Both the position numbers and the translations under genes were made by a program. Below, one piece after another: positions 939 to 12,250 of a DNA stretch of 64,000 nt. The notes under the pieces are model-generated. The model did no database searches, had not been told where the DNA came from, and saw only the letters and a list, made by a program, of their open reading frames with translations. Numbering within the stretch: position 1 is the first letter of the stretch; every line of letters begins with the position of its first letter. The DNA is taken from contig JAKALP010000014.1 in the NCBI GenBank assembly GCA_021824175.1, positions 62,001-126,000 of the forward strand, given 5' to 3'. The stretch comes from Deltaproteobacteria bacterium. Its GTDB lineage: Bacteria > Desulfobacterota > Desulfobacteria > Desulfobacterales > Desulfosarcinaceae.

Positions 939-2429
939 TTATTCTTCACTACCGTTACTTGCATGGTAAAGCTCAAATTCCAGCAGGAAGGTGGTGCCTT
1001 CGCCGCTGGTTTGCTTCACGCTGATATTGCCTTTGTTCTCTTTGACCAAACCATAGGCGGTGCTCAATCCCAGGCCAGTACCCTCGCCCGGTGCCTTGGT
1101 GGTGTAAAACGGATCGAAAATTTTAGTCAGATTTTCCGGAGCGATGCCGCAGCCGGTATCAATCACTTCCAGATAGGCTTTGCCCGCTTCCTTGTCCCGA
1201 TAGGTGTGCAGCGTCAAGACGCCTGTGCCATCCATGGCGCTGATGGCGTTCATCACCAGGTTGATGATCACCTGACTGATCTGATTCTTGTCCACATGCA
1301 CCAGCATCATCTCGTCGGAAAACTGCCGCTCGATGCGCACATTGCGAAACATCTTGGGATCTCGGATCAGGCTCAAACTCTGATTGACGATGGCATTGAT
1401 GTGAATAATATCCTTCATCGGGCTGGACTGCCGGCTGTAGGCCAGCAGATTCTGCACGATCTCCTTGCAGCGCTTGACATCCTCGATCACCGCCTCAACA
1501 TCGGACCGTTCCGGATCTTCGGCAGTCATGGTCTCCAACTTGAGTGTCGCGTAAAAAAGAATGCCGGTCAGCGGGTTATTGATTTCATGGGCCACGCCGG
1601 CGGCCAGCTGCCCCAGTGACGCCATCTTCTCCGACTGGGCCAACTGGGCGCGGGTCTCCTTGAGTTTATTCTCAACCGCCAGTTTCTCCCGCAAGTCGGT
1701 GTAAATGCCCACCGTGGCCACTTCCTCGTTATCTTCGTAGATAATGGAGGCGGTCAGCTCCACCGGTATGGCCTCGCTCTGGGCGTTGATGATGGTGGTT
1801 TTCAGGCTGCGCAGCTTGCCTTTGCCATCTTTGAGTTGACGCATGATGCTGCTGGCCACGCCGGGCGGATAGATCTGATCGGCCGTGATTTGCCGTACGG
1901 CAAAAGCGTTGGCATAGCCGAAGAGTTCTTCGGCCGATGGATTCATGAGAAGTATATGGCCGTATCGATCCGCGGCCACAATGGCGATGGGTGATCCGAG
2001 AATGACTTTTTCCAGGAAGGCTTCGGTCTCTTTGAGGGCCAGCTCCAAGTTCTTCTGGCGGGTCACGTCCCGGACGCTCTCCATGATATACGCGACCTGG
2101 CCTTTTTCATCCAGAATGGGCGAAAAAACCCGGTCCTCATAAAGCCGTTTGCCGGTACGCGTGGTGTGGCGCCGCATCACCGAAGTGCCGCTCTTCTCCG
2201 CCAGCACTTTAGGGAACGGGCAAACTTTATTGGGACAGCTCAGGGTGCCGTAGAATACTTCATGGCATTTTTTGCCTGCGATTTTTTCGAGCTCGACTCC
2301 GAATTTTTCCAGGAACACCTGATTGGCCGTCAGGATGACTTTGTCCGGTTTGAGAATCAACGTGGGAAAGGATAACGAGTCAAAGACACGCAACCGCCAA
2401 TCGATCTCTTCCAACAACTTGTCATTCAT
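939..2429 (-). CDS. PAS-PAS sensor histidine kinase with cysteine-rich first PAS domain
   Basis: This 496-residue kinase has no obvious transmembrane segment, so it is probably cytoplasmic. Residues about 10-125 form a PAS domain with a cysteine cluster (KKCHEVFYGTLSCPNKVCPF, C-x10-C-x4-C) often seen in PAS domains of anaerobes and suggestive of redox or metal sensing. A second PAS covers about 130-255. HisKA follows with His281 in AHEINNPLTG, then a HATPase domain to the C-terminus with the N box (VINLVMNAISAM), DTGCGI and GTGLGLS. All catalytic boxes are intact. The ATG overlaps the stop of the upstream ACT gene (ATGA), indicating translational coupling. Its likely phosphate acceptors are the receiver at 3685-4068 and the downstream REC-kinase. 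The actual ligand cannot be read from the sequence. Confidence 0.92.
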   Translation of the reverse strand: MNDKLLEEIDWRLRVFDSLSFPTLILKPDKVILTANQVFLEKFGVELEKIAGKKCHEVFYGTLSCPNKVCPFPKVLAEKSGTSVMRRHTTRTGKRLYEDRVFSPILDEKGQVAYIMESVRDVTRQKNLELALKETEAFLEKVILGSPIAIVAADRYGHILLMNPSAEELFGYANAFAVRQITADQIYPPGVASSIMRQLKDGKGKLRSLKTTIINAQSEAIPVELTASIIYEDNEEVATVGIYTDLREKLAVENKLKETRAQLAQSEKMASLGQLAAGVAHEINNPLTGILFYATLKLETMTAEDPERSDVEAVIEDVKRCKEIVQNLLAYSRQSSPMKDIIHINAIVNQSLSLIRDPKMFRNVRIERQFSDEMMLVHVDKNQISQVIINLVMNAISAMDGTGVLTLHTYRDKEAGKAYLEVIDTGCGIAPENLTKIFDPFYTTKAPGEGTGLGLSTAYGLVKENKGNISVKQTSGEGTTFLLEFELYHASNGSEE

Positions 2430-2965
2430 CGATGCGCCCCATGATGTCCCGCAATTTCCCGCTTTTCCTTTGGTATCTCAAAGGATTCCGTCAAAAGCTG
2501 TTTGGCCTTGGCGCCCCATCCGGCCGGAAATACCAGATAAATGGTGGCCACCGAACACACCACCGCCAGCAGCGGCGCCTGGGCACGGGCCAATGCCTTG
2601 AAGGTATAGTCCATGATCCCGTATCGATCGCCGAAATGGGGCCCTTGGAAGTAAATGGCATCCACCGGCATATGAACCAAAGCTTGTCCAGCGTCATCTA
2701 ACCGCTGGTCCCGCCTTAAAAAAGGTTGAACGTTACTCCATTGGGTATCGTCACACAAGAGGATAAACTTGATGTGGCCTGTGGGATCGAATTGGGACCA
2801 AACCAGACGGAAGAGGGCGTCCTGGCCCTCAGGCAATTGAAGCAGCCCTCCCCACTGACCGGCAGCATTCAATGGCCGGTGAATCTGGCACAGGGTTAAA
2901 CCCTCCAGCAGGTTAAACCCATAGGTGCGGACGATGGATTCCCAATAAACAGCAATGGTTTCCAT
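2426..2965 (-). CDS. ACT-domain-like protein of unknown function
   Basis: The 179-residue product has no catalytic motif I recognise. Its C-terminal third (about residues 110-168) resembles an ACT small-molecule-binding domain: GDRYGIMDYTFKALARA matches the usual D-R-x-G-I helix-start pattern, followed by a strand (ATIYLVFPAGW) and a final helix. The N-terminal 100 residues are unassigned and mention-worthy only for two tryptophans and a predicted alpha/beta pattern. The start at 2965 follows GGGAAAAATC. The gene lies 12 bases after another ACT-type gene and overlaps the histidine kinase start, so the three are co-translated. ACT domains usually bind amino acids or folate-related ligands; a sensory partner role for the kinases is inference. 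Confidence 0.72.
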   Translation of the reverse strand: METIAVYWESIVRTYGFNLLEGLTLCQIHRPLNAAGQWGGLLQLPEGQDALFRLVWSQFDPTGHIKFILLCDDTQWSNVQPFLRRDQRLDDAGQALVHMPVDAIYFQGPHFGDRYGIMDYTFKALARAQAPLLAVVCSVATIYLVFPAGWGAKAKQLLTESFEIPKEKREIAGHHGAHR

Positions 2966-2977
2966 GATTTTTCCCGA

Positions 2978-3499
2978 TCAGGTTGATGGCGACGCCTGCC
3001 GCACTTTAAAATCCACGGCGGACGGGGTGGCATCGGGCGGCAATTTCAGCTGTTGACTTAGACTTTCGGCCGCCTCTTCCATGCGGGCATAGTCGATGAC
3101 AAAGGTTAAAGCGGCAATGGACGAGCCGAGACCATAAACCATAATACCCCGATTGTTCAGGGTTTCCAGGGCGGTCCCCAATACCCGTAGGCTGGCTTGG
3201 TGCGGATAGAGACTGAGCAGCCCTACTCCTTGCTCACCCACTTGGACGGACTGGCTCAACTCGTGGTCTGAACGAATAATTGCAATGGCCTTGGCGCGGT
3301 CGTTGGCGTCGATACAGCACAATCCAGGCGCTGGCGCGCCAATGGTACTATGATTTAAAAAGGCAATATTGATTTGCTCGGCCGCCAGGGCCCGGCAGAG
3401 CTTGGGCATGGTCGGGTCGGGAAGATGGCCGGGTTGCACCCAAAAAGCAGATAGTTGCTCACTCTGCTTTAGACCGTTGATGGGAATCTTCTCAGCCAT
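2978..3499 (-). CDS. Aspartokinase-like ACT-domain regulatory protein
   Basis: From the ATG at 3499 the product is 173 residues and resembles the regulatory tail of aspartate kinase without the kinase. It appears to hold two ACT units: about residues 15-85 (FWVQPGHLPD to the DANDRAKAIAIIRS segment) and about 90-160 (VGLLSLYPHQASLRVLGTAL, then SIAALTFVIDYARMEEAAESL). The frame is open back to 3622, but I prefer 3499: GAGGCGG precedes it and the longer version would run across a 13-bp perfect hairpin at 3579-3610. It is encoded between a receiver gene and a second ACT gene within the Hdr/MetF operon. ACT domains of this type bind amino acids such as lysine or threonine in aspartokinase; the ligand here is unknown. 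Confidence 0.75.
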   Translation of the reverse strand: MAEKIPINGLKQSEQLSAFWVQPGHLPDPTMPKLCRALAAEQINIAFLNHSTIGAPAPGLCCIDANDRAKAIAIIRSDHELSQSVQVGEQGVGLLSLYPHQASLRVLGTALETLNNRGIMVYGLGSSIAALTFVIDYARMEEAAESLSQQLKLPPDATPSAVDFKVRQASPST

Positions 3500-3578
3500 G
3501 GCTGATATCCGCCTCGTTGATCCGAGCATTGATGCCTTTGGGCTCGCCAAGCCCGGATATATTGTCGCGCCAAAGGGT

Positions 3579-3610
3579 CGTGCTCCCATGCCGGGGCGCA
3601 TGGGAGCACG
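3579..3610. repeat. 13-bp perfect hairpin between receiver and ACT genes
   Basis: CGTGCTCCCATGC at 3579-3591 is exactly complementary to 3598-3610, with a 6-base loop (3592-3597). It lies in the 185-base gap between the receiver gene and the ACT gene. No T-run follows on the minus strand, so it looks more like an mRNA-stability or attenuation element than a simple terminator. Confidence 0.6.
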
Positions 3611-3684
3611 GATATAATTCATATCCGAAACATTAGCTTTTGAATCGACGATTTGGCTTTACAACCACCAAACTTAAAGTACTA

Positions 3685-4068
3685 CTATAAGTTATCCGCC
3701 ACGATCTCCATCAATTTATCCAAATCGATGGGTTTGGGAATGAAATCATCGGCCAAAGTATTCTTGCCGTCCATGTGGGTGTAACTGGTATTTTTCACCG
3801 CGTCGGCCACGGCGGTCAACAGCACCACGACGATATCTTTGTAATCTTTGTTTTTCTTGATTTCGTCACACAGCACGTAACCATTCTTACGCGGCATCAT
3901 GACATCCAGAATAATCAGGGCCGGCCGTTCAGCTTTGATCTTGTCCCAGGCTTCCACGCCGTCGTAAGCTTTGGCCACGCGATAGCCCTTGCTCTCCAGC
4001 TTCATGCCTACCGACTCCACCAGATCCGGATCATCATCAACCACCAGTATCAATTGTTTGTTACTCAT
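3685..4068 (-). CDS. Single-domain CheY-like response regulator
   Basis: The 127-residue product is a stand-alone receiver domain. ILVVDDDPDL carries the acidic pair, Asp56 in IILDVMMPRKNGY is the phosphorylation site, LLTAVAD carries the switch Thr, and the Lys sits in FIPKPID. There is no output domain. A longer reading frame to 4146 exists, but the ATG at 4068 has a strong AGGAGG eight to ten bases upstream and fits the family start. It sits directly after the second metF and before the ACT pair and two kinases, so it probably relays phosphate within this local signalling set. Its target is unknown; a link to the divergent sigma-54 regulator is unlikely through phosphorylation because that regulator has no receiver. 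Confidence 0.9.
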   Translation of the reverse strand: MSNKQLILVVDDDPDLVESVGMKLESKGYRVAKAYDGVEAWDKIKAERPALIILDVMMPRKNGYVLCDEIKKNKDYKDIVVVLLTAVADAVKNTSYTHMDGKNTLADDFIPKPIDLDKLMEIVADNL

Positions 4069-4155: not shown

Positions 4156-5079
4156 TTATAATTTGGGCCGCGGATAGAGTCCGGAGCGCTCCACGATCTC
4201 AGGCACGGCTGATTCCCATTCGATGGCCATAATATGGATGCCGGACACGCCTTCGATGTCCAACAGGCGCTTGATGGTCTCAACGCAGATATCGATACCT
4301 TCCTGAGCCTGCTTCTCCTTGGGCGGCTTGGCCATGCGGTCCACCAACTCAGCCGGCACATCCATGCCAGGCACCTTGTTGCGCATATAACGAGCGGCGC
4401 CCACGGATTTCATGGGGGTCACGCCAGCCATGATGAACACCTCTTTATGCAGGCCGCGTTCACGCACACCCTTCATCCATAACTCGAACTTGTCGACATT
4501 AAATATACATTGAGTCTGAATAAAGTCAGCTCCGGCTTTTACCTTTTTAGCCAGGCGGGCCACGCGCAGTTCAAAGGGATCGGCAAAGGGGTTGGCCGCC
4601 GCGCCGATGAACATCTTGGGCGGATTCTTGATATCGGCCCCGCCCTGGAACTTGCCCTCGTCTCGCATCTTGCGCACCATCTGGATGGCCTGCACCGAAT
4701 CCAGATCAAACACGCCGGTGGCCATGGGATGATCGCCGAACTTCATGTGGTCGCCGGACAGGCACAGCATGGTGTTGATGCCATGGGAGTATGCGCCGAT
4801 AATATCAGCCTGCATGGCCAGACGGTTGCGGTCGCGGCTCACCATCTGCATGACCGGGTGCATATCCATCTGCCGCAGAAACATACTGGCGGCAAAGCTG
4901 GACATGCGCACCATGGCGGTCTGGTTGTCCGTCACGTTGACGGCGTCGACATAGCCTTTGAGCAGGCTGGCTTTCTCCTTAACGACCTCGGGCATGGCGC
5001 CTCGCGGTGGCCCACATTCTCCGGTGACACCGATATGGCCGGCCCTCATTACCTTCTCTAATACGCTTTCAGTATACAT
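4156..5079 (-). CDS. metF: Methylenetetrahydrofolate reductase, MetV-partnered
   Basis: The 307-residue product belongs to the MetF family, which reduces methylene-H4folate to methyl-H4folate with FAD in a TIM barrel. Recognisable elements are the N-terminal GVTGECGPPRG, the VNVTDNQTA strand, the RDRNR motif with RLAMQADI, the LCLSGDH region, GAAANPF and the QTQCIFNVDKF segment with paired Gln and Asp. It is short because NAD(P)H-binding extensions are absent, as in the acetogen and sulfate-reducer enzymes that work with MetV and Hdr proteins. The ATG at 5079 overlaps the metV stop (TAATG), with GGGAGGA upstream. The tight coupling suggests a MetFV complex; electrons probably come from the MvhD-HdrA module. 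In a sulfate reducer the reaction may run in either direction. Confidence 0.92.
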   Translation of the reverse strand: MYTESVLEKVMRAGHIGVTGECGPPRGAMPEVVKEKASLLKGYVDAVNVTDNQTAMVRMSSFAASMFLRQMDMHPVMQMVSRDRNRLAMQADIIGAYSHGINTMLCLSGDHMKFGDHPMATGVFDLDSVQAIQMVRKMRDEGKFQGGADIKNPPKMFIGAAANPFADPFELRVARLAKKVKAGADFIQTQCIFNVDKFELWMKGVRERGLHKEVFIMAGVTPMKSVGAARYMRNKVPGMDVPAELVDRMAKPPKEKQAQEGIDICVETIKRLLDIEGVSGIHIMAIEWESAVPEIVERSGLYPRPKL

Positions 5080-5744
5080 TATTGCAAATCCTCCCTCACG
5101 ATCTTGCGAGGTCCGCCGCCCCGTTCCGTGCTCCAATCTTTGGCCATGATCACATCTTCATAGCGAGCTTCAATGCCCAACTCTTTCATCCGGTCCCAAA
5201 TCAACTGCCAGACGCAATCGACATCGTTGCTGATCTCGCAATGGCCTTTGCTGGAACCACCGCACGGTCCATTCATCAGACGTTTGGAGCAGCGGGCGAT
5301 GGGGCAGATGCCACCGGTCAGGCCCAGCAGACAGTTGCCGCAACCATGGCAACGCTCGGCCCACACGCCAGGACGCTCGGAAGCGCCCATGAACTTGGTG
5401 TTTACCGCCGGATAGACCCGTTTGCTCTTGAAGCGCCGGACCACTTCCTGCACGCCGCAGCCGCAAGCCATGGAGACCACCGCATCGACTTGATCGATAA
5501 ATGGGGCCAGTTGTTCGACATATTCGGGGTCGCACTGCCGCTCCAAGGTCATCTCATGAATTTCCAGAGTCTTGCCGCGTTTCATGAAATCCATTTGAAG
5601 GGCGGAAGCCAGCATGGCCACCTCTTTGCGGCCGCCGGCGGCGCAGACCGTCACGCACTCGTTGCAACCGGCCAACACAATGCGCCGGCAGCCGTCGATG
5701 CTATCGATGATCTCCGCCAAGGGTTTTCGTTCAGCTGTTATCAT
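5079..5744 (-). CDS. metV: MetV-type zinc/iron-sulfur partner of MetF
   Basis: The 221-residue protein matches MetV, the companion subunit of short MetF enzymes (methylene-H4folate reductase C-terminal domain family). It is rich in cysteine motifs: CNECVTVC near residue 26, CGCG near 95, and the dense segment CHGCGNCLLGLTGGICPIAR near 135-155 ending in CSKRLMNGPCGG, which likely bind zinc and/or an Fe-S cluster. Family members form a heterodimer with MetF and serve as the electron entry point. It lies between mvhD and metF, 24 bases after mvhD, and overlaps the metF start by one base. The ATG at 5744 has AGGAGACAAG upstream. Its assignment is firm; its exact cofactor here is inferred. Confidence 0.9.
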   Translation of the reverse strand: MITAERKPLAEIIDSIDGCRRIVLAGCNECVTVCAAGGRKEVAMLASALQMDFMKRGKTLEIHEMTLERQCDPEYVEQLAPFIDQVDAVVSMACGCGVQEVVRRFKSKRVYPAVNTKFMGASERPGVWAERCHGCGNCLLGLTGGICPIARCSKRLMNGPCGGSSKGHCEISNDVDCVWQLIWDRMKELGIEARYEDVIMAKDWSTERGGGPRKIVREDLQ

Positions 5745-5768: not shown

Positions 5769-6212
5769 TTAGGCGACCTTGGCCGTCGCGCAGGTTCCGC
5801 GACCGGCGCATACAGGGTTGGGTCCCAATTTTCGAATCGCTTGTGTAAACTCACCGGCAATCTGGGCAAAGCGGGTGCCCATACCGGCCGACATGGTCAC
5901 CATGGCCAGACGCTGGGACTCGATACCGACCTCTTCCAGCAGCTTCTTGACAAAGGTGACGCGCTTGGCGGCCTTGGTATTGCCGCTTTTGAAGTGACAA
6001 TCACCCTCCAGGCAACCGGCCACCAACACACCGTCGGCCCCCTTCTCCAATGCTTTCATCATATGAATACTGTCCACCTTGCCGCTGCACGGCACCCGCA
6101 CGATCTTCACATTGGCGGGGTAGCTCAGGCGCATGCTGCCGGCCATGTCGGCGGCGGTGTAAGCACAATAGTGGCAGCAAAACGCCACGATGACAGGTTC
6201 GAAGTTTTCCAT
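5769..6212 (-). CDS. mvhD: MvhD-type hydrogenase iron-sulfur subunit
   Basis: From the ATG at 6212 the product is 147 residues, the normal size for MvhD. It carries VAFCCHYCAYTAADM near the N-terminus, VRVPCSGKVD, the GCLEGDCHF motif and a C-terminal CAGRGTC, the cysteines expected to hold a [2Fe-2S] cluster. MvhD transfers electrons between HdrA and a partner such as a hydrogenase, formate dehydrogenase or, in acetogens, the MetFV complex. Here its neighbours are hdrA (overlap TGATG) and metV, so MetFV is the natural partner. The longer frame to 6329 overlaps hdrA coding sequence and is not used. Confidence 0.92.
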   Translation of the reverse strand: MENFEPVIVAFCCHYCAYTAADMAGSMRLSYPANVKIVRVPCSGKVDSIHMMKALEKGADGVLVAGCLEGDCHFKSGNTKAAKRVTFVKKLLEEVGIESQRLAMVTMSAGMGTRFAQIAGEFTQAIRKLGPNPVCAGRGTCATAKVA

Positions 6213-9200
6213 CAGGCAATCCTTTCCAATAATCCTTCCAGCTTGGCCAGAATGGGTTGATCCTCGAAGCGTGACAGCTGGATGGCCTTGGCCGGACACT
6301 CGGCCGCGCAGATACCGCATCCATGGCACTTGGCGGGATCGATTTCAGAATATCTGTTTTCGTTGATAAACGGCACGTTATAGGGACAAGCGCGCACGCA
6401 GGCCAGACAAGTGGCGCATTTTTCCGGATCCACGCGAGCCACTGTCGCCCCGAGATTGATGGTGTCCTGGGCCAGCAATGCCTGAACCCGACCGGCAACC
6501 GCCTGGGCCTGGGTAATGCTCTCGCGGATGTTGCGCGGCGAGTGGGCCGTTCCGGCCATAAAGAAGCCCGGCACCGACATATCCACAGGTTTGAGTTTGA
6601 CATGCTCTTCCAGGAAGTGCCCATCCGTGGTGCGGTCCAAATGAAAGATGGTGGAGAGATCTTCGGTAGTTTCATCATCCGCCAGGAAACCGGTGCTCAG
6701 CGCAAGACGATCGGCCGTGACTTCCACTGGGCGTCCCAATACCGGGTCCACAAAGCGGATCGCAACCTGATTGCCGGCGGCCTCAACGGTCGGCGGCGCG
6801 TCGGGGCTGTACCGTACGAAAATTACGCCGCGCCGACGGGCTTCGATGTAAGCATCTTCCATAAACCCATAGGTCCGCATATCGCGATAAAGTACGAAAA
6901 TGCGCATATCAGAGTTGAGATCCAGTAACCGCAAGGCATTTTTTACCGCAGCCTGGCAGCAAATGCGGGAACAATTGGGATTGGTTTCGGTCCGAGAGCC
7001 CACGCATTGGATCATCACAACGCTCTGCCAATCATTGACCTGGGCCGGTTGATCTTCCAACAGATTGTCCAGATCCAGCTGGGTCATGACCGCCTTGTGA
7101 CGATCAAGCAGGTACTGATTGGGCCGATGGGCCAGAGCGCCGGTGGCCAGCACGGTAGCCCCGTGTTCGATCTGGCGATAGTACATGCGCGGTCCGATCT
7201 GGAAGCCGGTGGTGAACTTGCCCGGCATACCGCTGTGATCGACCACGATGGCGTTGGTGATCACCTCGATGTTTTCGTGGGCTTTGGTCTTTTCCGCCAA
7301 CTGACGCACGTAGGCCTGGACATCATCGCCTTCCAGGTTGCGCCGGATCACGGCGGCCAAACCGCCCAAACGGCCGTTGCGCTCGGCCAGAACCACTTTG
7401 AATCCCTTGTCCGCCAGTTCCAGGGCCGCATTCATGCCGGCCACGCCGCCGCCCAACACCAACACATCTTTGTTCATGGGCAGTTTATGATCCCGGAGCG
7501 GTCCGGATTGGGCCGCGGCGGCCACTGCCATGCGGATCTGTTGCTTGGCCTTGGCCGTGGCCATCTCTGGCGCTCCGCTGTGCACCCAGGCGTTCTGATC
7601 GCGGATATTGGCGATCTCCACCAGGTATTTATTCAAGCCGGCGCGCCGGATGGTTTGCTGAAAAAGTTCTTCATGGGTGCGGGGCGAGCAGGCGCCCACC
7701 ACCACCCGATTGAGATTCTGCTCTTTCACCATCCGCTGAATTCGTTCGAGCGCTTCTTTACCGCAGCCGTGGCCGGTCATTTCAGCCATGACCACATGAG
7801 GGTATTTCTTGGCTTCTTCCACTACCGCATTCACGTTAATGGCGCCGCCAATATTTTGACCGCAATCGCACACAAACACGCCAATGCGCGGCGCTTCGCC
7901 CGTCACATCCCGCTCGGGCGGAAAATCATCTTCAGGCTCGGTGGAGCCGTTGGTTTTGGCCAGATGCTTTGAGGCCATGCAGGCCGCGGCGCTGGCCTGG
8001 ACCATGGTTTCGGGAATGTCCTTGGGGCTTTCGAACACGCCGCACACATAGATGCCCTGACGGTTGGTGCTCACAGGTTCGAAGCTGCCGGTCTTGGCAA
8101 ATTGGTGAGGATTAAGCTGGATGCCCAGGGTCTCGGCCAATTGTTTGGTGTAGGCCGAGGGGCGGAAGCCGGTGGAGAGCACCACCATGTCGAAGGTTTC
8201 GGTGGTGTGCCCGCTTTCGTTGTCCTTGGCGTAGACGATCTGCAGATCTTGCCCGGGCGCGGCCGGAATGATGCTGTGGGGCCGGCAGCGCACCAGCCGG
8301 ACGCCATAATCATCCTTGGCCCGCTGATAATAGGCTTCGTAATCTTTGCCGAAGGTGCGCATGTCCATGTAGAAAATGGTGGTCTCGATATCGCCTTTGA
8401 AACGCTGCTTGGTGACGATGGCTTCCTTCAGGGCGTACATGCAGCACACGCTGGAACAGTAGGAGACATCTTCGCGATTGATGCCGCGGGAACCGGCGCA
8501 TTGAATCCAGGCCACGCGCTTGGGTTGCTGGCCGTCCGAAGGACGCACCAGCTCACCCAGGGTTGGGCCCGAGGCGGACATGATACGCTCGTATTCCAGG
8601 CCGGTGACCACGTTGGGATAGCGGCCATGACCAAAATGATCCAGCTTGCCCGGATCAAAAAGTTCGGCGCCGGTGGAGAGGATAATCGATCCGACCTTTC
8701 GGATATTCTGCTTTTCGCCGTCATCGGGCACAATGGCTTTGGCCGGGCAGCAATTGACGAGTCCCGTCACATCCTTGCAGGCCGCCATATCAATGGAAAA
8801 CGCCTGGGGCGTGGCCTGGGGATAGCGCATACAGGTCGGAGCGCGATGATCCAACCCTGGATTAAAGCGCACGCACTCGGGATATTTTTTATGGCACTCA
8901 CCGCATGCCGTGCATTTCTCCAGATCGATGTAGCGGGGCGTGCTGGTCAAGGTGACGGTAAAGTTGCCGGGCTCGCCACTGACCGCCGACAATTGGGTCA
9001 GAGGCAGGAGCTCAATGTGCTGCTGCCGGGCGCCGGCCGATAAACGGGGTGAAATTGTGCACAAGTCACAATTGTTGGTTGGGAAGGTGCGGTCCAGCTG
9101 GGTCATCAAACCGCCAATGGATGCCGCCCGGTCGATAAGCACTACATCCTTGCGTGCTTCCGACAGATCCATGGCTGCTTTGATCCCGCCAACACCGCCA

Positions 9201-9247
9201 CCGATGATAAGAACGGATTTAATGGCGTCTGCTGATTGTTCGGTCAT
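6212..9247 (-). CDS. hdrA: Tandem HdrA-like flavoprotein polyferredoxin
   Basis: The 1011-residue product holds two HdrA-type flavoprotein units in one chain. Unit 1 starts with the FAD motif IIGGGVGG (residues about 14-21), followed by NNCDLC and an atypical Fe-S motif CTACGECHKKYPEC near 110 and a second Cys group near 165. Near residue 455 comes VFVCDCGQNIGG, the usual HdrA N-terminal cluster segment, then a second FAD motif LGGGVAG near 595. The C-terminus has two ferredoxin motifs, CATCLACVRACP (about 945) and CHGCGICAAECP (about 972). HdrA proteins carry out flavin-based electron bifurcation or confurcation. No HdrB or HdrC gene is in the window. The ATG at 9247 has AAGG upstream and matches the domain start; an upstream extension to 9394 overlaps the preceding metF and is rejected. 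Confidence 0.93.
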   Translation of the reverse strand: MTEQSADAIKSVLIIGGGVGGIKAAMDLSEARKDVVLIDRAASIGGLMTQLDRTFPTNNCDLCTISPRLSAGARQQHIELLPLTQLSAVSGEPGNFTVTLTSTPRYIDLEKCTACGECHKKYPECVRFNPGLDHRAPTCMRYPQATPQAFSIDMAACKDVTGLVNCCPAKAIVPDDGEKQNIRKVGSIILSTGAELFDPGKLDHFGHGRYPNVVTGLEYERIMSASGPTLGELVRPSDGQQPKRVAWIQCAGSRGINREDVSYCSSVCCMYALKEAIVTKQRFKGDIETTIFYMDMRTFGKDYEAYYQRAKDDYGVRLVRCRPHSIIPAAPGQDLQIVYAKDNESGHTTETFDMVVLSTGFRPSAYTKQLAETLGIQLNPHQFAKTGSFEPVSTNRQGIYVCGVFESPKDIPETMVQASAAACMASKHLAKTNGSTEPEDDFPPERDVTGEAPRIGVFVCDCGQNIGGAINVNAVVEEAKKYPHVVMAEMTGHGCGKEALERIQRMVKEQNLNRVVVGACSPRTHEELFQQTIRRAGLNKYLVEIANIRDQNAWVHSGAPEMATAKAKQQIRMAVAAAAQSGPLRDHKLPMNKDVLVLGGGVAGMNAALELADKGFKVVLAERNGRLGGLAAVIRRNLEGDDVQAYVRQLAEKTKAHENIEVITNAIVVDHSGMPGKFTTGFQIGPRMYYRQIEHGATVLATGALAHRPNQYLLDRHKAVMTQLDLDNLLEDQPAQVNDWQSVVMIQCVGSRTETNPNCSRICCQAAVKNALRLLDLNSDMRIFVLYRDMRTYGFMEDAYIEARRRGVIFVRYSPDAPPTVEAAGNQVAIRFVDPVLGRPVEVTADRLALSTGFLADDETTEDLSTIFHLDRTTDGHFLEEHVKLKPVDMSVPGFFMAGTAHSPRNIRESITQAQAVAGRVQALLAQDTINLGATVARVDPEKCATCLACVRACPYNVPFINENRYSEIDPAKCHGCGICAAECPAKAIQLSRFEDQPILAKLEGLLERIA

Positions 9248-9348: not shown

Positions 9349-10221
9349 TTAAAGCTGAGCGTAATCGAGGATCGACGCCAGGCGATGCTCCCACCCGTGC
9401 GTTTCGATCTTTACACCGGCCACTTTGCCCTTCAGAGCGGCAATGGTCTCACCGGCGATTTTAAGACATTCATTCTCACGATCCGAAGCCTTACGAATCC
9501 GCTGGATGAGTCCTTCGCTCAAACCGGCGCCGGGTTCGTTGAGCGCGATATAACGGGCGATACCCACTGATTTGATCAAAAAGATGGTGGCGATGATCGG
9601 CACGCCCAGCACTTTGGCTTCGGACAGAAAATGGCTGAAGCGCTCGACATCAAAGACGGGCGGGGTAATGATAAACCGCGCACCGGCATCCACTTTTTTC
9701 TTGGCCAACGCCAGCGCGGCGGCCATGGCCGCATCATTGGCAAAAGAGGCAATGGTGCTGCCGGTGGTAAAACTCGGGGCCCCCTCAAGCTCGAAGCCGG
9801 CCAGGTCCACTCCCTTTTGCAGAGAGGCCACGGCTTGGAGCAATCCCAGTTCATCCAAATCATTCACCGGTTTGGCATCGCGATGATCGCCGTTGGCCAT
9901 CTCTTCGCTGTTGGCTACCACCAGGTTCTGGATGCCCAGCACATGGGCCGCTAGAATATCGCCCTGCAGGGCCAGACGGTTGCGATCGCGGCAGTAAATG
10001 TGGATTACGGCTTCGATCCCCTGCTGTTGCATCAACACGCCGCCGGCCAGGGCGCTCATGCGCATAACGCCATTGTCCATGTCTGGTACGACGACGGCAT
10101 CCACCCGCCCCTTGATGCGCCGGGCATTGGTGATCAGCTGGGAGATATCCACGCCTTTGGGAGTGTTCATCTCCGCCAAAACCATAAATTCGCCAGATGC
10201 TAATCGTTTTTGAAAACTCAT
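9349..10221 (-). CDS. Second MetF-family methylenetetrahydrofolate reductase
   Basis: The 290-residue TIM-barrel protein shares MetF landmarks with the gene at 4156-5079: an early LAEMNTPKG strand, VVVPDMDNGVMRMSAL, the YCRDRNRLALQGDI motif, and a ITPPVFDVERF segment corresponding to the Gln/Asp region. It is more diverged in the N-terminal half and lacks an adjacent dedicated MetV. The ATG at 10221 has AGGGGAA upstream. It lies between a TusA-like gene and hdrA, 101 bases before hdrA. It may be a second reductase isoform, a structural subunit, or act on another C1-pterin substrate; the sequence does not decide. Naming it simply metF would hide that this operon has two. Confidence 0.85.
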   Translation of the reverse strand: MSFQKRLASGEFMVLAEMNTPKGVDISQLITNARRIKGRVDAVVVPDMDNGVMRMSALAGGVLMQQQGIEAVIHIYCRDRNRLALQGDILAAHVLGIQNLVVANSEEMANGDHRDAKPVNDLDELGLLQAVASLQKGVDLAGFELEGAPSFTTGSTIASFANDAAMAAALALAKKKVDAGARFIITPPVFDVERFSHFLSEAKVLGVPIIATIFLIKSVGIARYIALNEPGAGLSEGLIQRIRKASDRENECLKIAGETIAALKGKVAGVKIETHGWEHRLASILDYAQL

Positions 10222-10296: not shown

Positions 10297-10533
10297 TTAT
10301 AATTTTCTTAAATGCAGCCGAATGGGCTCATCCTCTCGTTCATCCAATTCGATCAACTCATACGAGATTGAAGGCAACAGCCTGAATAGATCGGATCGTG
10401 TGTCGGAGTCCAGTCCCAATACCTCCAAGGTTTGATTGGCCCGCATCTCCCGGAACATCCGCGTCAACTTGAGCAGAGCCAGGGATTTTATAGCGCCTCG
10501 AAAATCGAAGCTATAATCAGCTTTCTCGGCCAA
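10297..10533 (-). CDS. TusA/SirA-fold protein lacking the catalytic cysteine
   Basis: The 78-residue product follows the TusA fold throughout: an initial strand YSFDFRG, a long helix (LALLKLTRMFREM), the strand TLEVLGLDSDTRSDL with the conserved D-x-x-T-R-x-D pattern, and a closing strand (RLHLRK). Normal TusA proteins carry CPxP immediately after the first strand for sulfur relay; here that position reads AIKS, so it cannot carry a persulfide in the usual way. The TTG at 10533 is preferred because GGAG lies eight bases before it; a TTG six bases further upstream is too close. It is the first gene behind the sigma-54 promoter and shares the operon with metF and hdrA. A binding or scaffold role for an Hdr complex is inference. 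Confidence 0.72.
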   Translation of the reverse strand: MAEKADYSFDFRGAIKSLALLKLTRMFREMRANQTLEVLGLDSDTRSDLFRLLPSISYELIELDEREDEPIRLHLRKL

Positions 10534-10834
10534 TGGCAACTCTCCTTTTCGAATCCATCAGTATTTAGGCGGTTATCGGCGAAGCGAAGGGTTGTTTGCT
10601 TCAATTAAATTCGCTCTCTTGACCCGTCGCTCCCCCACCTAAATATTAAGGTCGCTATACAAAGCAATTGATGTGCCAGATTCTCAAGACTGGCCGACAA
10701 TTTGATTTTAACTTAAATTTCAAATCATTATATGATGGCTAACTATCCCCGGCCATTGAAATATTGCCCTGTGATTGTTAAAGTGCTAAAAAGCGCGCTT
10801 TTAACAGGTGTTAAAATTTAACAGGCAGTGTTAA
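10534..10834. other. Divergent control region between TusA-like gene and sigma-54 regulator
   Basis: About 300 bases without a gene. It holds the minus-strand sigma-54 promoter (10664-10678), an AT-rich middle part (10690-10770) and a set of palindromes next to the regulator start (10789-10836). The leader of the minus-strand operon would be roughly 120 bases. Confidence 0.8.
10664..10678 (-). promoter_or_regulatory. Sigma-54 (-24/-12) promoter of the Hdr/MetF operon
   Basis: On the minus strand the sequence reads TGGCAC-ATCAA-TTGC-T, an exact match to the core TGGCAC-N5-TTGC consensus including the invariant GG and GC pairs; against the longer 14-position consensus I count 12 matches. TGGCAC occupies 10678-10673 and TTGC 10667-10664, placing the start of transcription near 10652. 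It points into the TusA-like/metF/hdrA operon. A sigma-54 activator gene is divergently encoded 157 bases away, the normal arrangement. Confidence 0.85.
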
Positions 10835-10836
10835 AT
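10789..10836. promoter_or_regulatory. Cluster of palindromes upstream of the sigma-54 regulator
   Basis: Three self-complementary stretches follow each other. AAAAGCGCGCTTTT spans 10789-10802. TTTTAACA-GG-TGTTAAAA spans 10799-10816. ATTTAACA-GGCAG-TGTTAAAT spans 10816-10836 and overlaps the regulator start codon. The repeated half-site TTAACA/TGTTAA suggests operator sites for a dimeric protein, either autoregulation of the activator or its enhancer for the divergent promoter about 120-160 bases away. Direct sequence observation; binding is inferred. Confidence 0.6.
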
Positions 10837-12250
10837 GACCGAGCATGAAATAGACCGCTACTGGAAAACCGTAGTGAATACGATCCGCGACGGCCTGATG
10901 ATCGTGGATGAGCGGGGAGTGATCGTCTCGGTCAATGACGCCCTGGAGCGCATCACCGGTTATGAACGCGGCGAACTGATCGGCAAGACCTGCACGGTGC
11001 TCAATTGCGATATCTGCGACGAACTACGGCAGAACTGCGGCGAACGCTGGTGCTCCCTGTTCGCCGGCAACCAGGTGGCGGCCCGTCAATGCGTGATCGT
11101 GCGCAAGGACGGCACCATGGTGCACGCCCTGAAAAACGCCTGCATCCTCAATGACGATAACGGCGAGATGATCGGAGCCGTGGAGACCATCACGGACATC
11201 ACTGAGCTGATCGAAAAGGATAAACAGATCGCGGCTTATGAAAAACAGCTGCGATCCGATGACGGTTTTTACGGCATCATCGGCACCAGCCCGGCCATGC
11301 GGCGGGTATTTGAGCTGATCACCAACGCCGCCCAGTCCGATGCGCCGGTGATCATTCTGGGAGAAAGCGGCACCGGCAAGGAGCTGGCCGCCCAGGCCAT
11401 TCATCAAATCGGTGCACGCAGCGCCAAACCGTTCGTCAAGGTGAACTGCGCCGCCTTCACGGAATCGCTGCTGGAAAGCGAACTCTTCGGTCACGTCAAG
11501 GGGGCCTATACAGGCGCCTACCGCAACCGGGCGGGACGTTTTGAAATGGCCGACACCGGCGATATCTTTCTGGACGAAATCGGCGATCTGCCGCTGTCCA
11601 CCCAAATCAAACTGCTGCGCGTGCTGGAAGAAAAAATCATCGAACGGGTTGGCGAAAGCACCCCCATTCCGGTGGATGTGCGTATCATTTCAGCCACCAA
11701 CCGCAACCTGCCCAATCTCATTGCCCAGGGCGCTTTCCGCAAGGATCTCTTTTTCCGCATCAATGTCATCCCCGTGCACCTGCCGCCCTTGCGGGAGCGC
11801 AAGGAAGATATCCCTCTGCTGGCCGAATCCTTTTTCCACAAAATCGGCCTGAAGAACCGCAAGTCCATTAGCGGCATCAGCAACGATGCCATGGCCTGCC
11901 TCATGGCCTACCAGTGGCCCGGCAATGTGCGCGAGTTAAAGAGCGCCTTTGAGTATGCTTTCGTTACTTGTCAGGATGCCATGATCCAGCCGCATCATCT
12001 GCCCCCCAATATCTTGGATGGTTTTACCGCGGAAATCACAGTGCCATCGGACAACGGTAACAAACCCTTCAATCGGGAAGAGATCCAGCGCATCGAGTTG
12101 ATCGAAGCTTTGGAAGAGGCCGAGGGCAACCAATCCAAAGCCGCTGAACTGCTGGGCGTGACCCGCGTCACCATCTGGAACCGCATGCGGCGATTTGGAG
12201 TTCAATATAAAAAGAAAATGGAGTCGGGCGACCAGGCGGCGGCACTCTGA
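10835..12250 (+). CDS. PAS-type sigma-54-dependent transcriptional activator
   Basis: The 471-residue protein has a PAS domain (about 7-125), a central AAA+ domain (about 148-375) and a Fis-type helix-turn-helix at the C-terminus (about 430-460, QSKAAELLGVTRVTIWNRM). Walker A is GESGTGKE near 176, the sigma-54-contacting loop is GAYTGA near 222, and Walker B is DIFLDEIGD near 245. There is no receiver domain, so control is through the PAS domain, which contains many cysteines (CTVLNCDICDELRQNC and a further CSL and QC), suggesting redox, metal or Fe-S sensing. It is divergent from the Hdr/MetF operon, which has a sigma-54 promoter, so that operon is its probable target. The ATG overlaps a palindrome that may mediate autoregulation. 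Confidence 0.93.
   Translation: MTEHEIDRYWKTVVNTIRDGLMIVDERGVIVSVNDALERITGYERGELIGKTCTVLNCDICDELRQNCGERWCSLFAGNQVAARQCVIVRKDGTMVHALKNACILNDDNGEMIGAVETITDITELIEKDKQIAAYEKQLRSDDGFYGIIGTSPAMRRVFELITNAAQSDAPVIILGESGTGKELAAQAIHQIGARSAKPFVKVNCAAFTESLLESELFGHVKGAYTGAYRNRAGRFEMADTGDIFLDEIGDLPLSTQIKLLRVLEEKIIERVGESTPIPVDVRIISATNRNLPNLIAQGAFRKDLFFRINVIPVHLPPLRERKEDIPLLAESFFHKIGLKNRKSISGISNDAMACLMAYQWPGNVRELKSAFEYAFVTCQDAMIQPHHLPPNILDGFTAEITVPSDNGNKPFNREEIQRIELIEALEEAEGNQSKAAELLGVTRVTIWNRMRRFGVQYKKKMESGDQAAAL

Follow-up and report, generated by a model that had tools for sequence, protein, structure and literature searches.

The window considered here, i.e. the whole stretch of 64,000 nucleotides that was analysed, corresponds to positions 62001-126000 of contig C11 in a genome of 6.07 Mb (G000), whose host is a Desulfatitalea-like sulfate reducer of the Desulfosarcinaceae. 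It carries an operon in which a double HdrA flavoprotein is encoded together with MvhD, MetV and two MetF-like proteins, a combination that points to a methylenetetrahydrofolate reductase (MTHFR) resembling the Hdr type. Among the matches listed, the closest named one belongs to Desulfatitalea alkaliphila (89% for MetV), which we take to be a sulfate reducer of the Desulfobacterota. The core genes are the following (aa, amino acids; THF, tetrahydrofolate; FAD, flavin adenine dinucleotide):

9349..10221, minus strand: MetF1, a divergent paralogue with the MTHFR fold, 290 aa (PF02219, 77.8 bits)
6212..9247, minus strand: double (pseudo-dimeric) HdrA, 1011 aa, with two FAD domains (reading frame open from an ATG; profile matches)
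5769..6212, minus strand: MvhD/FlpD, 147 aa (PF02662, 174 bits)
5079..5744, minus strand: MetV, 221 aa (PF12225, 123 bits)
4156..5079, minus strand: MetF2, the catalytic methylene-THF reductase subunit, 307 aa (PF02219, 141 bits)

On the minus strand, the genes run in the order TusA-like, MetF1, HdrA, MvhD, MetV, MetF2, receiver, ACT-like protein, 179-aa protein and histidine kinase. The stop of HdrA overlaps the start of MvhD in the letters TGATG at 6214-6210, and the stop of MetV overlaps the start of MetF2 at 5081-5077. For comparison, named genomes were scanned with the window MetV and the best 80 of at least 563 loci were kept, a sample in which near relatives are over-represented and which comprises 59 loci of the HdrA (window) type, 14 of the HdrL type and 7 undecided ones. 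The arrangement is not a matter of chance, since other families of the order and of the phylum also have HdrA-MvhD-MetV-MetF in succession, and the connection of HdrA to MetF through MvhD and MetV, which had been proposed in a first-pass annotation of the sequence, is upheld by the overlapping genes and the conserved operon. That the HdrA-MvhD pair would instead serve an unrelated dehydrogenase, with MetFV lying next to it incidentally, is considered highly improbable: HdrA homologues do partner hydrogenases, formate dehydrogenases and Flx in other systems, and the genome holds several further double HdrAs, but the gene order is kept across many families, the window genes overlap, and an interaction between MetVF, HdrA and MvhD was demonstrated by pull-down in Sporomusa ovata (PMC9430772; this and the other articles are cited from parts of their text).

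The alignments show that, at the level of residues, MetF2 keeps the MTHFR catalytic positions and MetV its cysteines. The positions of E. coli E28, D120, Q183 and K172 are invariant in all 42 MetF2 sequences, and so are those of T59 (here N), H88 (here Q), G119, Y152 (here N), D165 (here R) and N168 (here R); several other tested positions vary. In MetV, 13 cysteines are invariant across 14 aligned sequences, and no PDB relative was found by phmmer at E 0.001. The window thus holds a MetV and MetF core whose reductase residues are intact, as well as HdrA and MvhD in the same run of overlapping genes with conserved order. HdrB and HdrC are absent from the operon, the HdrD-like proteins of the genome lying on contigs C32, C54, C22 and C23, and membership in the strict six-gene Hdr type is therefore not claimed. 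Judged from its sequence, the window system would work like an Hdr-type MTHFR although it is not of the six-gene operon type.

As regards HdrA, the first-pass annotation had recognised two FAD motifs, an HdrA cluster segment and two C-terminal ferredoxin motifs in one chain of 1011 residues, a description confirmed by the profile matches and by alignment to the methanogen HdrA 5odc. Residues 1-440 match the FAD and inserted-ferredoxin part of HdrA in profile and structure-sequence comparisons, and residues 451-1007 comprise the HdrA N-terminal domain, a second FAD domain and two C-terminal 4Fe-4S motifs; along 5odc, the FAD domain with its inserted ferredoxin falls at 35-383, the N-terminal domain and the start of the FAD domain at 451-623, and the C-terminal part at 825-1007. 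An AlphaFold2 model of the protein has a mean predicted local distance difference test score (pLDDT) of 82. Among 49 full-length homologues, on which all HdrA residue counts are based, the equivalent of Cys197 is found in half 1 (C63, 49/49) and the N-terminal cluster domain in half 2, where cysteines C460, C462, C495 and C520 are kept in 44-47/49. As read from these residues, HdrA is a pseudo-dimer in a single chain, as in Chadwick et al. (PMC9012536). Half 1 also holds the pair E220/K274 (each 49/49), which equals E356/K409 of M. thermolithotrophicus when counted along the 5odc alignment; in half 2, K769 is kept in 49/49, and at the position of the glutamate, which was matched by eye to D727, 29 homologues have D, 12 have Q, 7 have E and 1 has A. 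The pair is a marker used to flag bifurcating HdrA and not a proof of bifurcation, which on this basis would be possible for the window HdrA. The energy conservation proposed in the first-pass annotation would likewise be a possibility at most. In the inserted ferredoxin, the cysteines of cluster I (C112, C115, C118 and C167) are invariant (49/49) and those of cluster II mostly lost (C125 kept in 32/49, C157 in 37/49, the two middle ones absent from the window HdrA), and the two-cluster form that would make a ferredoxin site is not found. By eye, homologue L172 keeps both motifs.

The operon is one among several MTHFR options of its host, as further sets lie at L033 (C25, 83-91 kb), where a GltD-fused HdrL (1549 aa) precedes MvhD, MetV and MetF in a Moorella-like manner, at L041 (C49), with a molybdopterin FdhA-like protein, a NuoF/GltD fusion, MetV and MetF, and near 200 kb of C32, with a MetF-MetV fusion. 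A match to the CdhC/AcsB family is found at C47. The paralogous double HdrAs L010, L013 and L014 (C28, C10 and C58) each contain one in-frame TGA and are probably selenoproteins, those of C28 and C58 adjoining HdrB and an HmeC-like protein (at C58, a label given by eye).

A whole-genome search for the CCG domain of HdrB-type proteins gave 27 matches and none in the window; the sole match on C11, at C11:54713, lies outside it, and the search with an HdrC-HdrB fusion protein likewise returned this single C11 match. The statement of the first-pass annotation that HdrB and HdrC are missing therefore holds for the operon and the window, but not for the genome, in which the search for hdrBC that it had suggested leads to stand-alone HdrD-like proteins at C32, C54, C23 and C22. 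One in-frame TGA is present in the HdrDs of C32 (83% identity to the L120 cluster copy), C54 (72%) and C23 (60%), that of C22 being a Cys form (67%). The C32 HdrD, an HdrC-HdrB fusion selenoprotein at C32:240544-241854, lies apart from the MTHFR genes, beside a gene resembling a PAS regulator (label by eye), and is placed by a tree of poor resolution among copies linked to MTHFR. Its family occurs near MetV far above chance, 20 of 76 HdrDs of at least 70% identity lying within 8 kb of MetV versus 0.63 expected under uniform placement, and HdrD matches reaching at least 82% are found in 10 of the 13 genomes with a window-type cluster, those of G005 and G007 being partial.

In the 30 window-type loci covered over at least 7.0 kb upstream and at least 6.9 kb downstream of MetV, an HdrD-like protein is encoded in 15, HdrB in 9 and either of them in 17. 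These HdrD-like proteins are selenoproteins in 12 of the 15 cases, the exceptions being L132 and L142, whose divergent matches have Cys (about 210-220 bits), and L155, with a weak match (177 bits) at a distance of 8 kb. What had been read in relatives as a gene pair, HdrC-like plus small CCG, is actually one gene for an HdrC-HdrB fusion selenoprotein with a single in-frame TGA. More distant clusters have the orders MetF1-HdrC-HdrB-HdrA (L292, L297) and MetF1-HmeC-HdrB-HdrA (L301), and phylum-wide the arm in cis varies between HdrC plus HdrB, HmeC plus HdrB, HdrD, or none. The HmeC-like proteins carry Fe-S domains, accompanied by a nitrate-reductase-gamma-like membrane domain in L137 and in the host's own C28 copies; the L301 copy has no membrane domain at E 1e-5. 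Two neighbourhoods are also worth recording: L046:3011-5460 (C11:53-55 kb), shortly beyond the edge of the window and 6-8 kb past the operon regulators, encodes a CCG/Fe-S protein and, after it, a class III cytochrome c, a pair that resembles a Tmc-type complex, and L245:14914-17433, near a stand-alone HdrD, encodes an FlpD-bearing Fe-S/HdrA-like protein of 839 aa beside NuoF/NuoG-like genes.

The core genes are surrounded by the following features:

10835..12250, plus strand: divergent PAS / sigma-54 activator / Fis-HTH regulator, 471 aa (Pfam PF00158, 233 bits; PAS; HTH_8)
10663..10678, minus strand: sigma-54 type -24/-12 promoter TGGCACATCAATTGCT (perfect consensus match)
10297..10539, minus strand: TusA-like protein of 80 aa lacking the CPxP cysteine motif (PF01206, 24.7 bits, under the cut-off of 28.6)
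3685..4068, minus strand: receiver-only response regulator (PF00072)
2978..3622, minus strand: ACT-like protein, weakly resembling the regulatory part of aspartate kinase (TIGR00656, 21.6 bits, under the cut-off)
2426..2965, minus strand: conserved protein, 179 aa, family not assigned (recurs in many related clusters)
939..2429, minus strand: PAS histidine kinase, 496 aa (Pfam; recurs in many related clusters)

The sigma-54 site, read at 10678-10663, is the only perfect consensus in the 64 kb (0.07 expected) and lies between the operon and the divergent PAS/sigma-54 activator. Sites with at most two mismatches are found at 22/42 operon starts, window included, versus 89/840 control stretches, and are lacking at the other 20, that of D. 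alkaliphila (L118) among them. A one-mismatch site lies 103 bp upstream of the C32 HdrD; counting this copy together with two congeneric ones, such sites precede 3/7 of the stand-alone HdrDs checked (L245, L256, L257), compared to 29/700 control stretches. The TusA-like protein, whose CPxP motif is absent from the window and from 17 homologues (0/18), is therefore probably not a sulfur carrier. The ACT-like label is partly our assumption, the gene itself recurring in many related clusters, and the 179-aa protein has no Pfam or NCBIfam match at E 0.001. The gene after the operon kinase (L046:11431-12927) encodes a receiver-PAS-histidine kinase hybrid.

The first-pass annotation had set the composition of the operon apart from that of the acetogen complex, but this does not make it a new type of complex, given the precedents in Thermacetogenium phaeum (PMC6895022), 'Ca. 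Syntrophoarchaeum' (PMC9012536) and S. ovata (PMC9430772): the architecture, the gene combination and hdrA clusters without hdrBC are already published. The Moorella and Sporomusa enzymes were compared through published descriptions and not as protein sequences, no acetogen names being present among the best 80 of at least 563 loci. In S. ovata, the cluster contains hdrB and hdrC, which the window operon lacks, and encodes a HdrA of 942 aa with two FAD domains; MetV, MetF, MvhD, a two-FAD HdrA with the E/K pair in one domain only, and a second HdrA half without inserted ferredoxin are shared with the window (PMC9430772). The first FAD domain of S. ovata seems to be devoid of an inserted ferredoxin as well, judging by the position of E160/K216 and its five clusters, whereas half 1 of the window HdrA keeps one cluster of it. 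MetF1, the TusA-like protein and the two-component genes are features of the window that the available part of PMC9430772 does not mention for S. ovata. The hexaheteromeric MTHFR of Moorella thermoacetica follows the same subunit logic, with a fused HdrA showing complementary loss of Cys197 and the N-terminal domain (PMC9430772, PMC9012536), but its HdrA has a GltD-like NAD(P)H domain and its hdrBC are in cis, the GltD-type HdrA of the present genome being found instead at C25. In T. phaeum, as in the window, only hdrA stands beside metFV, hdrB and hdrC lying elsewhere and being proposed there to link MTHFR to quinone; these hdrBC adjoin a periplasmic formate dehydrogenase, whereas the candidate in the present genome is a fused selenoprotein (PMC6895022). 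Archaeal clusters are also on record, i.e. those of HdrA3/HdrA4 in ANME and the MetFV-HdrA-MvhD clusters of 'Ca. Syntrophoarchaeum', with no MetF1 mentioned in the part of PMC9012536 at hand. Desulfobacterium autotrophicum likewise has HdrA/HdrL followed by MvhD, and HdrD-type HdrCB fusions of which HdrD4 is a selenoprotein, although the portion of PMC2702500 available describes no link of HdrL, HdrD or MvhD to MetF. Finally, a Chloroflexi MTHFR cluster has fused hdrBC and a PhoBR pair flanking metF (PMC5736913), and HdrA lies near metF in Seep-SRB (PMC10553843).

Taken together, it is on balance probable, with modest confidence, that the operon encodes an Hdr-type methylene-THF reductase with its third branch in trans and MetF1 as an accessory, expressed under sigma-54. 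The missing arm would probably be relocated rather than absent, and supplied from elsewhere in the genome. By analogy with S. ovata and T. phaeum (PMC9430772, PMC6895022), we infer that electrons would most likely pass between methyl-THF and HdrA via MetF2, MetV and MvhD, and onward to an HdrB/D-type site in trans. The third branch, which is HdrBC in acetogens, would most likely be the fusion selenoprotein of C32, which would exchange electrons in either direction with a partner of higher potential, either a DsrC-type disulfide or the quinone side. Such a quinone-side or thiol-side partner is favoured because S. ovata did not show co-reduction of NAD(P)+ or ferredoxin (PMC9430772) and because the oxidation of methyl-THF in T. 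phaeum, a reaction of about -200 mV, did not depend on NAD and, when measured with benzyl viologen, was strongest in the membrane fraction (PMC6895022). The main direction would probably be methyl-THF oxidation, the host being a sulfate reducer with acetyl-CoA synthase. The divergent PAS activator would probably control transcription from the sigma-54 promoter, which would probably be tuned by the co-encoded kinase/receiver pair.

Several observations nevertheless weigh against this reading. Neither an HdrD-like protein nor HdrB is encoded in cis in 13 of the 30 window-type loci, D. alkaliphila among them; in its poorly resolved tree, the C32 HdrD does not group specifically with the HdrDs of window-type clusters; and 4/7 stand-alone HdrDs (L246, L255, L258, L259) have no sigma-54-like site. 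The HdrD copies of G011 and G014 reach only 70-73% or less, and G053 has a window-type cluster and no HdrD at E<=1e-100. Besides, HdrD is common, occurring in 48/60 genomes including that of the host, some of them with no window-type cluster found, and may therefore serve other complexes. The idea of the C32 HdrD as the exclusive partner of the operon is weakened by G053 and by this wide occurrence, and since G053 has the same cluster without such an HdrD, supply in trans is a point that we infer. In addition, as one inserted-ferredoxin cluster is lost in most homologues, the ferredoxin branch is doubtful.

The 13 loci without an arm in cis, the case of G053 and the invariant cysteines of cluster I would also fit a true HdrBC-free complex, the reading of the first-pass annotation, in which MetVF-MvhD-HdrA would have no HdrB-type site and only two partners: methyl-THF and, at the inserted ferredoxin, a soluble carrier of low potential. 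This alternative appears rather unlikely, given that arm genes lie in the same neighbourhood in 17/30 loci and occupy the slot between MetF1 and HdrA in L292, L297 and L301, that several HdrB/D-type proteins are encoded in the host's own genome, and that most homologues have lost the second inserted-ferredoxin cluster.

The first-pass annotation had overlooked MetF1 (9349-10221), the second MTHFR-like gene, upstream of HdrA. The protein is 31.5% identical to MetF2 and forms its own clade with a support of 100/100 (16 rows). Its model (pLDDT 93.7) has MTHFR as the nearest solved folds, the best PDB match being Thermus MTHFR (E 1.1e-13), and its active site is altered: among 42 sequences, the position of Asp120 is E in 36 and that of Gln183 is P in 37, the position of Glu28 being kept as E in 40, so that the canonical trio of MetF (Glu28, Asp120 and Gln183 in E. 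coli numbers) is not intact. The roles of these three residues in MetF are taken here as an assumption. MetF1 is found in 45 of the 47 window-type loci that extend at least 4.6 kb upstream of MetV, and is missing from L173 (a Desulfobacterales metagenome-assembled genome) and L176 (Desulfobacter vibrioformis), the latter having HdrA-MvhD-MetV-MetF but neither the receiver nor the kinase. Within 3.5 kb downstream of MetV, a receiver gene is present in 68/68 loci bearing MetF1 versus 5/17 without it, in a set of 85 MetV loci with sufficient flanking sequence from which duplicates between genome sets were removed for this count only, in which shared descent inflates the contrast, and in which three loci scored as MetF1-less (L092, L189, L297) have MetF1 beyond the 8-kb limit. 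A phylum search, of which 30 loci were kept, places HdrA/HdrL directly after MetF1 in 21; the other nine have no HdrA within the 1.5 kb covered, MetF1 being adjoined by HdrC-HdrB in L289-L291, HmeC being present in L267, and a receiver gene in L278, L279, L281, L287 and L288. A MetF-MetV fusion of 514 aa is encoded at L042:5622-7166, and a longer relative of it (669 aa) follows MetF1 and the receiver gene in L294.

Its position upstream of HdrA in the window and in the 45 loci, and directly before HdrA/HdrL in 21 loci of the phylum search, could suggest that MetF1 itself is the third arm, with a second flavin or folate site replacing HdrBC. However, MetF1 coexists with HdrC-HdrB (L292, L297), with HmeC-HdrB (L301) and with an upstream HdrD (15/42 loci), and therefore does not replace those arms; the related idea of a substitute found only where HdrBC is absent was dropped for the same reason. 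It also occurs in loci where no HdrA is seen (L294, L296, L298, L299), hence it is not an HdrA-specific arm, and D. vibrioformis has the module without it. A role of MetF1 as third arm is thus regarded as very unlikely, and under the favoured reading, that of an Hdr-type reductase completed in trans, MetF1 would be an accessory subunit or a C1-folate sensor rather than the main reductase. No description of a second MetF-like gene beside HdrA, nor of third-arm swapping, was found in the literature searched, which left out supplements and most subscription papers.

At stake is the wiring, in sulfate reducers, of methyl-THF oxidation, the step that is thermodynamically awkward when the Wood-Ljungdahl pathway runs in reverse. 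The comparison names concrete candidate partners for it, namely the selenoprotein HdrD or the HmeC-HdrB pair, and highlights a MetF paralogue that stays with these operons and for which that literature held no prior description. More tentatively, and as a rather speculative extension, the Desulfobacterota may have a plug-in Hdr-type methyl-THF dehydrogenase, in which the MetVF-MvhD-double-HdrA core and MetF1 would be constant and the arm swapped among HdrC plus HdrB, HmeC plus HdrB and a selenoprotein HdrD, or supplied in trans, MetF1 being linked to the two-component system as a sensor of C1-folates or as an allosteric subunit. If this were true, the cell would both rewire and sense the energetically difficult step of acetate oxidation.

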